Part shown: piece after piece, positions 4,285 to 16,730 of the stretch
Layout: every line of letters begins with the position of its first letter
How positions within the stretch are numbered: the stretch's first letter is position 1
Assembly (NCBI GenBank): GCA_945885345.1
Contig: CAMCYP010000003.1
Location: 1 to 64,000 of the forward strand
DNA from: Bordetella parapertussis
GTDB taxonomy: Bacteria > Pseudomonadota > Gammaproteobacteria > Burkholderiales > SG8-41
Length of the DNA: 64,000 nucleotides
Direction of reading: 5' to 3'
Position numbers and translations under genes: made by a program
Notes under the pieces: model-generated
The model's input: the letters and a program-made list of their open reading frames with translations, nothing else
Database searches by the model: none
Told to the model about the DNA's origin: nothing

Positions 4285-5901
4285 TCAAGCTGATGCGGCA
4301 GCCTTTTCCGCTGCCAGCTTGGTCTTGAACAGCCAGTCGCGGTAATCGTCCATGTCGCCGTCGAAGGGCTCCAGCTTGCCGTCGGACACGATCAGGAACT
4401 GATCCGTCGTTGCGCGCAGCAGATGGCGATCATGCGACACCAGCACCAGCGTGCCTTCAAACTGCGCCAGCGCCACCGTCAGCGCCTCGCGGGTCTCAAG
4501 GTCCAGATGGTTGGTCGGTTCGTCAAGCAGCAGCAGATTGGGCCGCTGCCAGACGATCATCGCCAGCGCCAGCCGCGCTTTTTCGCCGCCGGAGAAATAG
4601 GTGATCGGGTTCAGTGCCATTTCACCGGGGAAATTGAAGCCGCCGAGAAAACCGCGCAGTTCCTGCTCGCGCACGCGCGGCGCAATCTTCGCCAGATTCC
4701 ACAGCGGCGACTCGTCGTTGCGCAGCATTTCAACCTGGTGCTGGGCGAAATAACCGATGACCAGCCCCTTGTTGAAGTTCGCCGTGCCAGACAAGGGTGC
4801 CAGTTCGCCGGCGATGGTCTTGATCAGCGTCGACTTGCCGGCGCCATTGATGCCGAGCAGTCCGTAGCGCTGGCCGCTCTGCAGCGAAAACTTGATGCGC
4901 TTAATTACGGCTTTTTCCGTGCCATCGTCCAGTTTGTATCCGGCGGACACGTTTTCCATCACCAGCAGCGGATCGGGAGCGCGCAAAGGCTCGAGGAATT
5001 CAAACTGGAACGGCGCGGAAGCATGCAACGGCGCCAGATCCTCCATTTTTGCCAGCATTTTCATGCGGCTTTGCGCCTGGCGCGCCTTGCTCGCCTGCGC
5101 CTTGAAACGGTTGATGAAGGATTCAAGGTGCGCGCGTTCGCGCTGCTGCTTCTCGATCATGCCGGCGACCAGCACCACCGCAGCGGCGCGCTGGCGCTCG
5201 AAGTCCGAGTAGTGCCCGGCATAACGTTTCAGTTTCTTGTTGTCGATGTGCACGATGACATTGACCACGCCGTCAAGGAAATCGCGGTCATGCGAAACAA
5301 TGACCAGCGTACCCTTGTACTTCTTCAGCCACTCCTCCACCCACAGGATGGCGTCGAGGTCCAGGTGATTGGTCGGTTCATCCAGCAGCAGCAGGTCTGA
5401 CGGACACATCAGCGCCTGCGCCAGATTCAATCGCATGCGCCAGCCGCCGGAAAAACTCGCCACCGGCTGCTCCATCTGTTCATGGCTGAACCCGAGGCCG
5501 TGCAGCAACTGCTCTGCACGCGGGCGCACGGTCCATGCGTCGGCATCGGTGAGGTCGGCGTAGATCGAGCCGATGCGCTCGCCGTCGTCGGCGGTTTCGG
5601 CCGCGGCAAGTTCAGCTTCCAGCTGGCGCAGCGTGGTGTCGCCGTCAATGGCGTACTCAATCGCCGGGCGATCCAGAGCCGGGGTTTCCTGGGCCACATG
5701 CGCGACGCGCCAGCGCTGCGGAAAATCGACATCGCCCTGGTCGGCATGCAGTTCGCCGCGCAGCATGGCAAACACGCTGGACTTGCCGGTGCCGTTGGCG
5801 CCGATCAGGCCGATCTTGTCGCCGGGATTGAGCGCGACATCCGCGTCTTCAAGCAGCACTTTGGCGCCGCGCCGCAGCGTAATCCGGCTGAAACGTATCA
5901 T
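4285..5901 (-). CDS. ABC-F family ATPase (YheS-like)
   Basis: 538 residues with two ATP-binding cassettes and no membrane segments. The first has Walker A 'GANGTGKSS' near residue 35 and signature 'SFSGGWRMRL'. The second has 'GINGAGKSTLIK' and 'YFSGGEKARLALA'. Both end in 'LLLLDEPTNHLDL'. The linker between them is rich in basic and Gln residues, as in translation-associated ABC-F proteins. It is shorter than E. coli YheS because the C-terminal extension is missing. Members act on ribosomes to relieve stalling. The gene is convergent with the toxin-antitoxin pair and divergent from the M48 peptidase. Confidence 0.9.
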   Translation of the reverse strand: MIRFSRITLRRGAKVLLEDADVALNPGDKIGLIGANGTGKSSVFAMLRGELHADQGDVDFPQRWRVAHVAQETPALDRPAIEYAIDGDTTLRQLEAELAAAETADDGERIGSIYADLTDADAWTVRPRAEQLLHGLGFSHEQMEQPVASFSGGWRMRLNLAQALMCPSDLLLLDEPTNHLDLDAILWVEEWLKKYKGTLVIVSHDRDFLDGVVNVIVHIDNKKLKRYAGHYSDFERQRAAAVVLVAGMIEKQQRERAHLESFINRFKAQASKARQAQSRMKMLAKMEDLAPLHASAPFQFEFLEPLRAPDPLLVMENVSAGYKLDDGTEKAVIKRIKFSLQSGQRYGLLGINGAGKSTLIKTIAGELAPLSGTANFNKGLVIGYFAQHQVEMLRNDESPLWNLAKIAPRVREQELRGFLGGFNFPGEMALNPITYFSGGEKARLALAMIVWQRPNLLLLDEPTNHLDLETREALTVALAQFEGTLVLVSHDRHLLRATTDQFLIVSDGKLEPFDGDMDDYRDWLFKTKLAAEKAAASA

Positions 5902-6995: not shown

Positions 6996-7742
6996 ATGAA
7001 CAGCACAAGAAACCGCGTCCTCCTGCGGTGCCGGCAATTGCCGGCGATCCTGCTTTTCGCATGGGTGATCGCCGGTCATGCACTGACCTCTGGCGCAGCC
7101 AATATCAATGGCGTCGAAAACCTGCGCTACGAGTTTTCTGTGCGCGCGCTGCAGCCTGCCGAGCTGCCCAAGGACCGCTCGGGCGAATGGATGCAATTCT
7201 TCGCGCCCGGCATGGCCAGCGCCGCCCTCGGGTTGGTGGCAGCGCCGATGTACGCGAGCGGGTTGATCGTGGGCGGCATCATCCTCGCGCCCGGCGCACT
7301 GATTATTTCGTCAATGGAACGCCGCACATGGGAGCGCATGGTCACCGCATTGCAGGCGTCGGACTTTGAGCAATTGCTGCTGCGCGCCACGGAAGCTCGG
7401 GCCCGCACCGCGCTGCCGCCCCCCGCGCCTTCCAGCCCCACCGAGCCTGTCAGCGTCGAACTGGTCGTAAACGCCTACGGTCTTGCCCGTCAGGACCCGG
7501 GACACCTGTGTTTTATTGCGAGCATGGATCTGATCGCCAGTCGCGCCGGAAAGGTCTGGCTGCGTGACCGCCTGATCGTCTCCCCCCTCGAACGCAGTGC
7601 CGATGCCCCTCCGCCGCAATGCGCCTCCAATGAGCGCATGGCGGAAAACGACGGACAGATGGTGCGAAATACCGCGGCCATCTATGCAGAAATACTGGGC
7701 ATCATGGTCGTTGACCGGCTGCTCGCGCAGGGCACCAAGTGA
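6996..7742 (+). CDS. Hypothetical exported protein
   Basis: 248 residues, not recognised. It has a basic N terminus and a hydrophobic segment at about 15-33 that looks like a signal peptide. A second Gly/Ala-rich hydrophobic stretch at about 70-105 could be a membrane hairpin. The C-terminal half contains a few Cys residues and a Pro-rich linker. Its stop overlaps the GTG start of the next lipoprotein gene by four bases (GTGA), so the two are translationally coupled and likely act together at the envelope. Confidence 0.7.
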   Translation: MNSTRNRVLLRCRQLPAILLFAWVIAGHALTSGAANINGVENLRYEFSVRALQPAELPKDRSGEWMQFFAPGMASAALGLVAAPMYASGLIVGGIILAPGALIISSMERRTWERMVTALQASDFEQLLLRATEARARTALPPPAPSSPTEPVSVELVVNAYGLARQDPGHLCFIASMDLIASRAGKVWLRDRLIVSPLERSADAPPPQCASNERMAENDGQMVRNTAAIYAEILGIMVVDRLLAQGTK

Positions 7743-8371
7743 ACTCTTTCGCGAAATGCGCAGCCATCCTGTTATCCGTATTGCTGGCAGGCTGCGCTAC
7801 GGAATGGCGCACCGGCGAACCCGTAAAACCGACGACCTATGCCGCATCCGGCCCGGTCTCCGCAGTCTCAATCGGCCGACTTCCCCGGCTGGCGGTGATG
7901 ACGGTAACCCTGCACCGCGAAGCGGACGAGCAGGAAAAAGCGGCGCCCGAATGGCAGGCGCGCAATGAAGCCATCAAGACCGAACTACAGCAGGAAATCG
8001 TCCAGTTTCTCGTCAAACAGAAAGGCTATGACGCTCGCGCCATTGATGAAACAGCCCCCGTCGACGAGCAGGCCGCGCGTGAAACGGGACTGCGGCTGGG
8101 CGTTGACGGCATCGTCACTATCGAGCGCTGGCTTATCAAACCGTGGAGCACAGCAAAGGCGATCAGCAATGTTTTTCTGCTGAACATACCGTTGTTCTCG
8201 GCGCTGAATGCGGTCAACCTGCGGGTATCCATCCAAGAAACGGTCTCGGGCCGCACGGTGTGGATGACGGAAATGAAGGGGGAAATGCCGGATACGCCGC
8301 GCGAACCGCCCAATGTCAAAGGCGCGCTCGGCGATCTCGAAAACGCCGTGCCGGCGCAGTTGCGGCGATAA
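7739..8371 (+). CDS. Hypothetical lipoprotein
   Basis: 210 residues from a GTG that overlaps the preceding stop. The lipobox 'LLAGC' puts the lipidated Cys at residue 19. The remaining sequence has no motif I recognise; 'VDGIVTIERWLIKPW' and a later 'RTVWMTEMKGEM' resemble the alternating pattern of small periplasmic lipoproteins predicted to be beta-rich. It is coupled to the upstream exported protein. Function unknown. Confidence 0.75.
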   Translation: MNSFAKCAAILLSVLLAGCATEWRTGEPVKPTTYAASGPVSAVSIGRLPRLAVMTVTLHREADEQEKAAPEWQARNEAIKTELQQEIVQFLVKQKGYDARAIDETAPVDEQAARETGLRLGVDGIVTIERWLIKPWSTAKAISNVFLLNIPLFSALNAVNLRVSIQETVSGRTVWMTEMKGEMPDTPREPPNVKGALGDLENAVPAQLRR

Positions 8372-8385
8372 TTGGCTCGGAAGAG

Positions 8386-8404
8386 ATAACCATATGTTTT
8401 TATT
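8386..8404 (-). promoter_or_regulatory. AT-rich 19-mer (IHF-like)
   Basis: On the minus strand reads AATAAAAACATATGGTTAT. It lies 15 bases after the lipoprotein gene. The remaining 190 bases before the GST gene hold nothing I recognise. Confidence 0.35.
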
Positions 8405-8596
8405 TATATTTTTAATGATGACGCTGCTGATATGCTTTGAATTGGCGGGATTCCCAGCACAACCCCGTTTCACCAGGACTCGAAAGGCGAATGAATGCCC
8501 ATAGGTACCAGTTGAAGAAACTCGTCGAACCCGAGATCCCTGATTGACCGGATCACTTCTGGCCGCACGGATGACGACCATGGACAGCCGCCCATC

Positions 8597-9247
8597 ATGA
8601 AGCTTTACATCACCCCGGGCTCGCCCTACGCGCGCATCGCCCGCATCGTCATTCTCGAAAAAGGTTTGGAAAACCGGGTCGAGATCATCCCGGCACAGAC
8701 CAGGCTCGCCGACAGTCCGTACTACCGCATCAATCCATCAGGGCGCGTGCCCTGTCTGATCCGTGACGACGGTGTCGCGCTGGAGGAATCCGCGGTGATC
8801 TGCGCCTGGCTGGATCACCTCGACGGCAAACCGGCTTTTGATCTGCCGGCCGGTGACGAGGCATGGGAGCCGCGTCGTCTCGAATCGCTGGCACGGAGCA
8901 TCACCGACGGTCTTGCCGTGTGGAGCCGCGAAATCGCGCGGCCGCCGGCAGAACGTTCCCCCACGCTCCTCGACCACGAAGCACAGCGCAGCCGGCGCAT
9001 GGCCGCCCTGTGGGAAACCGAGATTGCACATCCGTGGATGAACGGCGCGCTGAACATGGCGCAGATCACGCTCGCCTGCGGCCTCGGGCTCGAAGCCCGC
9101 AATCCCGATCTGCACTGGCGCCACGACCACCCGAAACTGTGCGCCTGGTTTGACCGCCTTGCCGCGCGCCCGTCGTTTACAGCGACTGCACCACCGCCGC
9201 ACGCAAACGCCAGCGCAGCAGCAGCAGCAGCAGCCACAAGGCAATAA
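8597..9247 (+). CDS. Glutathione S-transferase family protein
   Basis: 216 residues. The thioredoxin-like N domain starts 'MKLYITPGSPYARIARI' and has the cis-Pro motif 'GRVPCLI' followed by 'LEESAVICAWLD', which binds glutathione. The helical C domain follows. Relatives normally end soon after 'ARPSFTATAPP'; this protein runs on through a poly-Ala tail encoded by a CAG-rich repeat. The DNA of the tail resembles the reverse of the methyltransferase 3' end at 10020-10047, so the natural terminus seems altered by a rearrangement. Confidence 0.88.
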   Translation: MKLYITPGSPYARIARIVILEKGLENRVEIIPAQTRLADSPYYRINPSGRVPCLIRDDGVALEESAVICAWLDHLDGKPAFDLPAGDEAWEPRRLESLARSITDGLAVWSREIARPPAERSPTLLDHEAQRSRRMAALWETEIAHPWMNGALNMAQITLACGLGLEARNPDLHWRHDHPKLCAWFDRLAARPSFTATAPPPHANASAAAAAAATRQ

Positions 9248-9259
9248 TCTCCGCCGAAC
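9232..9259 (+). repeat. Left copy of 28-bp direct repeat flanking a toxin-antitoxin module
   Basis: The sequence from AGCCACAAGG to CCGCCGAAC matches 10020-10047 at 24 of 28 positions in the same orientation. The pair brackets the module at 9395-9980. On the minus strand the left copy encodes 'SAEIIALW', close to 'SAEITALW' at the methyltransferase C terminus. Confidence 0.6.
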
Positions 9260-9268
9260 AATAATTAA

Positions 9269-9287
9269 CCAAGCATTTGTTTTTATT
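9269..9287 (-). promoter_or_regulatory. AT-rich 19-mer (IHF-like)
   Basis: On the minus strand reads AATAAAAACAAATGCTTGG, with the upstream ATAAAATAATTC extension shared with the copy at 16712. It lies between the GST gene and the toxin-antitoxin module. Confidence 0.4.
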
Positions 9288-9394
9288 GAATTATTTTATA
9301 TAACGGCAAGCCTCGCACCGGCGAAAATCGCAGCCCCTTCGCCACATCAGAGCGAGGTGATGACAAAAGGCACACACCAGATTAGGATGTGGCC

Positions 9395-9688
9395 ATGAAG
9401 CCGTTTCGGTGGAACCCGGAGAAGAATGAGGCTCTCTCGACTGCGCGGGGCGTGTCGTTCGAAACCATTGTCGTCGCCGTTGAGTCCGATGGCCTGCTCG
9501 ACATCCTGGCCCATCCAAATCCGGGCAAATACCCGCGACAGCGGATTCTGGTGGTAGCTGTGGACAACTATGTGTACCTGGTGCCCTTTATTGACGAACA
9601 ACAGTATTTTTTCCTGAAAACGATCATCCCCAGCCGCAAGGCCACCAGGGATTATTTGAATCAAGGTGAACCCGATGCCGAAAAATGA
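9395..9688 (+). CDS. BrnT-like type II toxin
   Basis: 97 residues from ATG 9395; TTAGGA seven bases upstream favours it over the GTG at 9389. It opens 'MKPFRWNPEKNEALSTARGVSF' and continues 'HPNPGKYPRQRILVVAVDNYVYLVPF', ending 'KTIIPSRKATRDYL'. This is the BrnT-type toxin pattern (RelE-like ribonuclease). The antitoxin gene overlaps its 3' end by 14 bases. The module has lower GC than the surrounding genes and is bracketed by 28-bp direct repeats, which suggests acquisition. Confidence 0.82.
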   Translation: MKPFRWNPEKNEALSTARGVSFETIVVAVESDGLLDILAHPNPGKYPRQRILVVAVDNYVYLVPFIDEQQYFFLKTIIPSRKATRDYLNQGEPDAEK

Positions 9689-9980
9689 CGTTTATGAGAA
9701 AGAAGTTCTCGGCGCCTATGAGAAAGGCCAACTGAAGTCAGTTGCCACCAAAGCGGAGCTTGCCAAATTCAAAGCTGCCGCTCGCGCCACCGCAGTCAAA
9801 GACCGGCGAGTCAACATCAGACTGTCATCAAGCGACCTGCAGGACGTTCAGGTCAAGGCGATGCAGGAAGGGGTGCCCTACCAGACTCTGATTGCCAGCG
9901 TGCTGCACAAGTACGTCACTGGCCGGCTAACGGAACCACAACCATTGCCAACTGAAAAAACGCCTGAATCAAAAGACTGA
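9675..9980 (+). CDS. Ribbon-helix-helix antitoxin of the BrnT-like toxin
   Basis: 101 residues from ATG 9675, with AAGGTGA five bases upstream; the track start at GTG 9666 is less likely. The middle segment 'DRRVNIRLSSSDLQDVQVKAMQEG' followed by 'PYQTLIASVLHKYV' is the strand-helix-helix pattern of CopG/Arc-type antitoxins. It should bind the upstream toxin and the module's own promoter. The gene overlaps the toxin, so translation is coupled. Confidence 0.82.
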   Translation: MPKNDVYEKEVLGAYEKGQLKSVATKAELAKFKAAARATAVKDRRVNIRLSSSDLQDVQVKAMQEGVPYQTLIASVLHKYVTGRLTEPQPLPTEKTPESKD

Positions 9981-10003
9981 AATGCCTTTGGAAGCTCTTG
10001 CTT

Positions 10004-11191
10004 TCAGCGCGCCACCAGCCGCCACAAGGCCGTAATCTCCGCCGACCGCGCCGCGTGCAGCGGATCGGTGGCGTCCTTGGCCTTGGGATGCATGGGCCGT
10101 GCTTCGCTGCGACTTTTGACTTTCAGCCCCGCCGCATCGATCAGTCCCAGCAGTTCCTCGCGCGTGCGCAGGCCCAGGTGTTCGGCGATGTCAGACAGGA
10201 TCAGCCAGCCCTCGCCTTCCGGTTCCAGGTGCTCGGCCAGCCCGGCGATAAAAGCGCGCAACATCTTGCCGCCGGCATCGTACACGGCGCGTTCAATCGG
10301 CGCGCTGGGTGTCGACGGAATCCACGGCGGATTGCAAACGATCAGCGGCGCACGACCTTCCGGAAACATGTCTTTTTCAACGATCTCCACCTGCGCGTTC
10401 AAACCCAGCCGCGAAATGTTCTCTTGTGCGCAGGCCAGTGCCCGGGGATCGGTTTCGGTGGCGATGACCCTGGCGACGCCGCGCTTTGCCAGCACCGCGG
10501 CAAGTACTCCGGTGCCGGTGCCGATGTCAAAAGCCAGCGTCATCGCGGGCAAGGTCGCCTGCGCCACCAGCTTCACGTATTCGCTGCGGATCGGCGCAAA
10601 CACGCCGTAGTAGGGATGGATGTGCGCACCCAGCGCCGGCACATCGACGCCTTTTTTGCGCCACTCATGCGCACCGATCAGCCCCAGCAGTTCGCGCAGC
10701 GAAACCACGCTGGCCATGCCTTCAGGCGTACCCCAGGCTTCGCGGCAGGCCAGCCGTACATCGGGCGCGCGGCTCAGCGGAATGCCGTAATCGGCTTCCA
10801 TCGGAATCAGCAGCATGGACAGTGTATGCGCACGCTGTGCCTGCGCCTGGCGATGGCGGTGAAAAGCCGCGCCGGGCGTGGCATCGGGCTCCTCCTGTTT
10901 ACGTCGTACTTTGCGCGGCCGGTCGATGCGCCGCATCAGCGCCTGCAGCAACTGGCGCGCGTTCTGGAAATCACTGCGCCACAGCAGCGCGGTGCCTTCT
11001 GCCGCAAGCCGATAGGCCGAGTCAGCGGTCATCGTGTCATCGGCAATCACCACGCGTTTGGGCGGCGTGGCACCGCTTTCAGAGCGCCAGCGTGCGGAAC
11101 GGTCTTCGGTGCCGTCGTTAAAATGAATTTGCGGATATTCGGTCAAGGGAAAACTTTCTGACGGTGCGACATGCGCCGTGCCCCCGAGCAT
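10004..11191 (-). CDS. Class I SAM-dependent methyltransferase
   Basis: 395 residues if started at ATG 11191. The track ORF extends to 11521, but the extra N terminus is the shadow of the neighbouring MFS gene. The SAM-binding glycine motif is 'FDIGTGTGVLAAVLA', and the catalytic-type 'VCNPPWIP' (NPPW) follows about 70 residues later. This is the arrangement of N-methyltransferases acting on Gln or on adenine/guanine in RNA (PrmC/RsmC-like). Target unknown. The C terminus 'SAEITALWRLVAR' is echoed by the direct repeat at 9232-9259. Start uncertain; no strong ribosome site is visible. Confidence 0.82.
   Translation of the reverse strand: MLGGTAHVAPSESFPLTEYPQIHFNDGTEDRSARWRSESGATPPKRVVIADDTMTADSAYRLAAEGTALLWRSDFQNARQLLQALMRRIDRPRKVRRKQEEPDATPGAAFHRHRQAQAQRAHTLSMLLIPMEADYGIPLSRAPDVRLACREAWGTPEGMASVVSLRELLGLIGAHEWRKKGVDVPALGAHIHPYYGVFAPIRSEYVKLVAQATLPAMTLAFDIGTGTGVLAAVLAKRGVARVIATETDPRALACAQENISRLGLNAQVEIVEKDMFPEGRAPLIVCNPPWIPSTPSAPIERAVYDAGGKMLRAFIAGLAEHLEPEGEGWLILSDIAEHLGLRTREELLGLIDAAGLKVKSRSEARPMHPKAKDATDPLHAARSAEITALWRLVAR
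10020..10047 (+). repeat. Right copy of 28-bp direct repeat flanking a toxin-antitoxin module
   Basis: Partner of 9232-9259 (24 of 28 identical). It lies in the last codons of the methyltransferase gene on the opposite strand. Confidence 0.6.
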
Positions 11192-16679: not shown

Positions 16680-16711
16680 ATCGCACCACCTCAGTAACTA
16701 TAAAATAATTC

Positions 16712-16730
16712 AATAAAAACAATTGGTTAT
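16712..16730 (+). promoter_or_regulatory. AT-rich 19-mer (IHF-like)
   Basis: AATAAAAACAATTGGTTAT, preceded by ATAAAATAATTC. It lies 33 bases after the dioxygenase stop and left of the second cassette array. Confidence 0.42.

Follow-up and report, generated by a model that had tools for sequence, protein, structure and literature searches.

A direct repeat beside a BrnT/BrnA-like toxin-antitoxin module reads as a relic of a methyltransferase gene end in a variable gene interval

A small toxin-antitoxin module lies between two direct repeats in the 64,000-nucleotide stretch of DNA analyzed in this study (the window). The right repeat belongs to a methyltransferase (MTase) gene and the left repeat overlaps the end of a glutathione S-transferase (GST) gene. 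The arrangement raises the question of whether the repeats mark an insertion of the module or arose in another way. The features of the locus are as follows.

4285-5901, minus strand: ABC-F-type ATPase gene, conserved left boundary (Pfam ABC_tran, ABC_tran_Xtn); congener orthologues are mostly 90-97% identical beside the same interval
8387-8415, plus strand: AT-rich intergenic motif, weaker copy (PWM score 35.3), between the 7739-8371 gene and the GST gene
8597-9247, plus strand: GST gene (Pfam GST_N); the last about 12 codons and TAA (9245-9247) lie inside the MTase-derived stub
9210-9259 (firmly 9225-9257), minus strand: left repeat, a relic of the 3' end of the MTase gene that carries a CAG expansion and reads SAEIIALWLLLLLLRW in antisense
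9270-9298, plus strand: intergenic AT-rich motif (consensus TAAGTAATTGTTTTTATTGATTTATTTTA), which forms the left border of the module block in each of the four congeners that carry the module
9360-9388, plus strand: probable module promoter, read from sequence (ATGACA, 17 nt, TAGGAT), overlapping a conserved AAAAGGCACAC element
9395-9688, plus strand: BrnT-like toxin gene (Pfam BrnT_toxin, 27.5 bits, below the cut-off of 34.5; Lys-His pair of BrnT missing)
9672-9980, plus strand: CopG/BrnA-like antitoxin gene (Pfam CopG_antitoxin, 27.7 bits, cut-off 28), overlapping the toxin gene
10004-11146, minus strand: MTS-domain MTase gene, conserved right boundary (Pfam MTS)
10013-10045, plus strand: right repeat, intact MTase 3' coding end

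Comparison of positions 9232-9259 with 10020-10047 revealed 24 identical positions out of 28 in the same orientation, which reproduces the match described in an earlier note on this DNA. The ungapped direct repeat comprises 33 nt (9225-9257 and 10013-10045, 88% identity) and is lengthened to about 42 nt by a gapped alignment. The match is not due to chance, since the best local score between the left and right flanks was 47, whereas 5,000 first-order Markov resamplings of the left flank never scored above 31, and a search of the 64-kb window with up to three mismatches found the repeat at these two sites only (0.00 expected). In antisense the left repeat reads CSAEIIALW, closely similar to the C-terminus SAEITALW of the MTase, as the earlier note had pointed out; MTase C-termini across the genus end in SAEITALWRLVLR or a similar sequence. 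The left repeat spans the last 15-17 MTase codons (about 9210-9259), with an expanded CAG run. Judged by its alignment and its antisense reading, the left repeat is a relic copy of the 3' end of the neighbouring MTase gene, an origin that the same note had proposed, and is hereafter called the stub. The stub aligned to the MTase end of G007 with a score of 52, to that of G005 with 48 and to the window's own with 47, the advantage of the G007 end depending on a few bases only. With the ends of G007 and G005 scoring higher than the window's own, descent of the stub from the right-hand copy is not required.

The stub has also altered the GST gene. GSTs of congeners stop two to nine residues past the TAPP motif, whereas the window GST runs on as PHANASAAAAAAATRQ and terminates at a TAA within the stub, giving the C-terminus TAPPPHANASAAAAAAATRQ with a 16-residue tail that contains a poly-Ala run. 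Since the protein overruns the stop point of its congeners and its stop codon lies in the left repeat, the tail and the stop were supplied by the left repeat. The comparison of C-termini thus agrees with the earlier claim that the GST end, poly-Ala tail included, had been changed by the repeat. In this way a 50-bp relic of one gene end has given a neighbouring gene a new C-terminus and a new stop codon. A first quick tree hinted at a foreign origin of this GST. In a careful tree with more rows the window genome (G000) stood apart from G005, but because a native position as sister of G005 was not rejected (p-AU 0.325), the tree does not demonstrate that the GST side is foreign. Between an M48 peptidase gene and the GST gene (6996-8371) lie two further genes, encoding a 248-aa protein and a 210-aa probable lipoprotein, for which no Pfam match was found and no counterpart near the locus in the congeners examined.

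The GST gene and the module lie in an interval bounded by the ABC-F and MTase genes. Near full-length MTase orthologues (at least 58% identity) were found in 33 of the 61 genomes searched, and the interval was compared across 15 congeneric intervals. It measures 85 bp without genes in G011, 119 bp in G018, less than 1 kb with a GST gene only in G014 and G008, 4.1 kb in the window and 5.9 kb in G020. Its contents include GST, TspO, a UDG-superfamily protein, M48 peptidase, ankyrin-repeat genes (read from sequence) and the module, in varying combination. The interval is a small gene-exchange hotspot. No integrase or transposase family was found among the interval proteins tested, which represent part of the interval ORFs. 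In trees of both boundary genes the window genome groups with G019, G007, G005 and G010, as expected if exchange occurs between them; ABC-F served as the species marker, rpoB not being found in G000, G005 and G019. Many hotspots that lack mobile elements show recombination at flanking core genes (PMC5635113). The present interval, with conserved flanks, rapid gene turnover and lengths from 85 bp to 5.9 kb, resembles them as far as 15 congeneric intervals show.

Analysis of the 21 genomes of the genus revealed two copies of the MTase end only in the window genome, also when regional sequence was used; every other congener with a match has one. GST-MTase alleles without the module, each with a single MTase end, are present in six congeners (G005, G001, G020, G012, G014 and G008), and in these module-free alleles the distance from the GST stop to the MTase stop ranges from 32 to about 550 bp. 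In G007, G019 and G004 the module adjoins the same MTase end, again with a single repeat, while its left neighbour differs: an ankyrin-repeat gene in G007, TspO in G019 and an M48 peptidase gene in G004. An extra gene lies between antitoxin and MTase in G007 and G019. Identity to the window follows the same order for both parts, at 86-87% (G007, G019) and 76% (G004) for the module and at 88-89% and 83% for the MTase, and this agreement makes it plausible that the module occupied a common ancestral location beside the MTase, with later losses. Since the three carriers with one repeat span two clades, the module probably adjoined the MTase before the second repeat existed.

These observations separate two parts of the earlier proposal that a segment with the module had been inserted at, or duplicated from, the MTase 3' end. 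The empty site with a single repeat that the note had asked for is present in the module-free congeners, as shown by GST-MTase spacing, and module-free relatives with both repeats, named there as contrary evidence, were absent from the 21 congeners. The MTase origin of the repeat stands. Insertion of the module is not supported, since two copies would be expected in G007, G019 and G004 if an insertion had made the repeat, and one is found; the repeat pair is thus not the insertion footprint of the module. For the same reason, site-specific insertion or target duplication was rejected as a general mechanism. The second repeat came from a later or separate rearrangement in the variable interval, private to the window genome among the 21 congeners. 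When repeats surround a toxin-antitoxin pair, occupied and empty relatives should therefore be compared before insertion is inferred.

The left edge of the module block carries a 29-bp directional AT-rich motif, TAAGTAATTGTTTTTATTGATTTATTTTA, with about nine copies in 64 kb. The copies lie at 9270-9298, 55020, 60432 and 8387 and, on the minus strand, at 16701-16729, 27077, 37081, 3531 and 19886. Nearly all of them are outside called ORFs, and for several the nearest gene end is no more than about 30 bp away. The motif occurs throughout the genus (21 of 21 genomes) and, in the family, in G025, G026, G028 and G034; the reversed control pattern gave no match. Its strings were not found in the papers of the literature searched. 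The TAAGTAATTG part of the motif resembles the IHF consensus.

For the origin of the stub we lean, with roughly even confidence, towards one-sided illegitimate recombination, anchored by homology at its other end, in which a GST-MTase allele would have been joined to an allele carrying AT motif, BrnTA and MTase, with the 50-bp stub left behind. The mechanism, the order of events and the direction of transfer that we infer would be the following. The genus swaps small accessory gene blocks between the conserved ABC-F and MTase genes, and in the window lineage a GST-MTase allele would have been joined to a module-bearing one. One crossover would have taken place by homology in a flanking conserved gene; at the other end an illegitimate join would have fallen within the final 50 bp of the MTase gene on the GST allele, a few bases before the AT motif of the module allele. 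The product would be GST, MTase 3' stub, AT motif, BrnTA and intact MTase in this order. The GST gene would have lost its own stop, its frame becoming fused into the antisense stub, and CAG slippage may afterwards have extended the poly-Ala run.

One-sided recombination is supported by the match of the stub to an MTase end, slightly better to those of G007 and G005 than to the window's own, and by the existence of both kinds of parental allele, namely GST-MTase without the module and the module with other left neighbours. The anatomy of the stub is consistent with homology at one flank, a non-homologous junction at the other and a remnant of the recipient allele. Against it, the GST-stub junction requires an extra deletion or fusion beyond the joining, and neither a donor nor a parental allele showing these exact junctions was found. 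The event would be of an already known kind. Homology-facilitated illegitimate recombination is defined in PMC3240628 and occurs in E. coli conjugation; it has been proposed for remnants of displaced genes in Vibrio T6SS effector-immunity arrays (PMC5361080). As in those arrays, homology would have anchored one side but played no part in the join at the other, and part of the displaced allele persists; the remnant there is an orphan immunity gene, whereas here a core gene has left 50 bp of its end and the mechanism is read from anatomy only. The stub would then be a clean footprint of accessory gene turnover between core genes without a mobile element.

The main rival is a head-to-tail tandem duplication of AT motif, BrnTA and the last 50 bp of the MTase, followed by deletion of the first BrnTA together with the spacer after the GST gene, leaving the stub. 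This course needs no donor, the ancestor of G000, G019 and G007 probably already had the module next to its MTase gene, and AGCGCAGCA-type microhomology is present at the GST-stub junction. It is nevertheless rather unlikely: both events would have to be placed precisely, the intermediate would carry two modules and was not seen in the 21 genomes, and other MTase ends match the stub better than the window's own does. The two direct repeats also resemble attL and attR sites at the 3' end of a gene, which the right copy would make whole again, and module-free relatives have one repeat; the module could on these grounds be an element inserted in the MTase 3' end, which it duplicated as a target-site duplication or as the att repeat of a small integrative element. 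That origin is improbable, since every occupied site should then have two repeats, and the sites of G007, G019 and G004, which hold the module in the same position, have one. Furthermore, the 788-bp segment has no integrase or transposase gene, only the BrnT/BrnA-like pair lying between the repeats, and module copies elsewhere in the genome were not found. A duplication of 30-50 bp is also long for a transposase.

An artefact of metagenome assembly, in which the end of a GST-MTase contig of one congener was joined to a module-MTase contig of another, would fit a genome that is incomplete and slightly contaminated (69 contigs, 3.59 Mb, 93.6% complete, 5.49% contamination) and whose closest named relatives are Burkholderiales and Betaproteobacteria MAGs. 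The chance of such a chimera is nonetheless slight: the junctions lie inside a 150-kb contig and share no long k-mer, the repeats differ at 12% of positions and therefore cannot collapse, and the CAG expansion and base changes of the stub look like decay in situ. Most improbable of all is that the AT-rich motif and the MTase 3' end are the paired sites of an unrecognized small cassette-exchange system, of which the stub would be the footprint; were this true, gene blocks between ABC-F and MTase would be swapped by way of these sites.

Irrespective of how the stub arose, sequence comparison supports a BrnT/CopG-antitoxin-like identity of the pair. The toxin gene comes first and overlaps an RHH/CopG-type antitoxin gene, the arrangement by which BrnT/BrnA is recognized, and the antitoxin is the constant partner of the toxin in all homologous modules. 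The match of the toxin to PF04365 (27.5 bits, E 4e-6) does not reach the gathering score of 34.5, and both Pfam scores of the module are under the curated cut-offs. In the profile alignment to the toxin 7vd7, RKHGVRFE stands opposite TARGVSFE, so that the Lys-His pair of BrnT is replaced by Ala-Arg in the window toxin; nine homologues all have arginine in place of the His. The Lys-His residues are reported to be important for BrnT RNase activity (PMC10714953). With this pair missing, BrnT names a relationship and not a demonstrated function, and the toxin is called BrnT-like. A solved-structure search with the toxin gave only a marginal match, to the same 7vd7 toxin (E 0.039). The AF2 model of the toxin (pLDDT 91) matched RelE/ParE/YafQ toxins best in the PDB, although weakly (E 0.03-0.1, TM about 0.35-0.5), and BrnT 3u97 was absent among the best 50 PDB matches listed. 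The NCBIfam search of the module returned no match, and PADLOC gave only a weak match of the antitoxin to JetA (E 0.0023). The toxin was not found in the phages searched.

The module thus resembles BrnT/BrnA type II systems in its toxin-first overlapping order, in Pfam similarity to BrnT and CopG antitoxin and in a RelE/ParE-like fold as the best, though weak, structural match; it differs in the Ala-Arg pair and in the sub-cut-off scores. It may work, toxicity included, as a type II toxin-antitoxin pair of the BrnTA-like kind. The probable promoter is sigma-70-like and overlaps a AAGGCACA-type element that, in aligned upstream sequences, is retained in distant homologues. By analogy with BrnA autoregulation, this element is a candidate operator.

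Homologous BrnT/BrnA-like pairs occur elsewhere in the family at L049, L050, L051, L053 and L056 (G025, G035, G010, G021 and G019). Downstream of them lie attC-like ends whose boundaries are GTTRRRY-like, so that the pairs look like integron gene cassettes. DNA folding of these ends was not significant for two of three, support being weak except for L049. The cassette pairs share with the window module about 51-59% identity in toxin and antitoxin and a similar AAGGCACA-type element upstream. They differ in having attC-like ends, none of which could be recognized by eye in the window module, where 9980-10020 after the antitoxin was inspected, or in its three MTase-adjoining orthologues. Second, broken BrnT-like toxin genes are present at L054/L056 (G019:C20:24766-25036), with a TAG and a split frame, and at L052 (G039:C3:318-598), with an in-frame TGA; the antitoxins beside them still match over most of their length. 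Relatives of the toxin at 47-49% identity are found on plasmids of Piscirickettsia salmonis (H3-H15) and Candidatus Megaera (H1, L253), the pair on the latter plasmid being annotated as BrnT/BrnA and lying near a traD gene.
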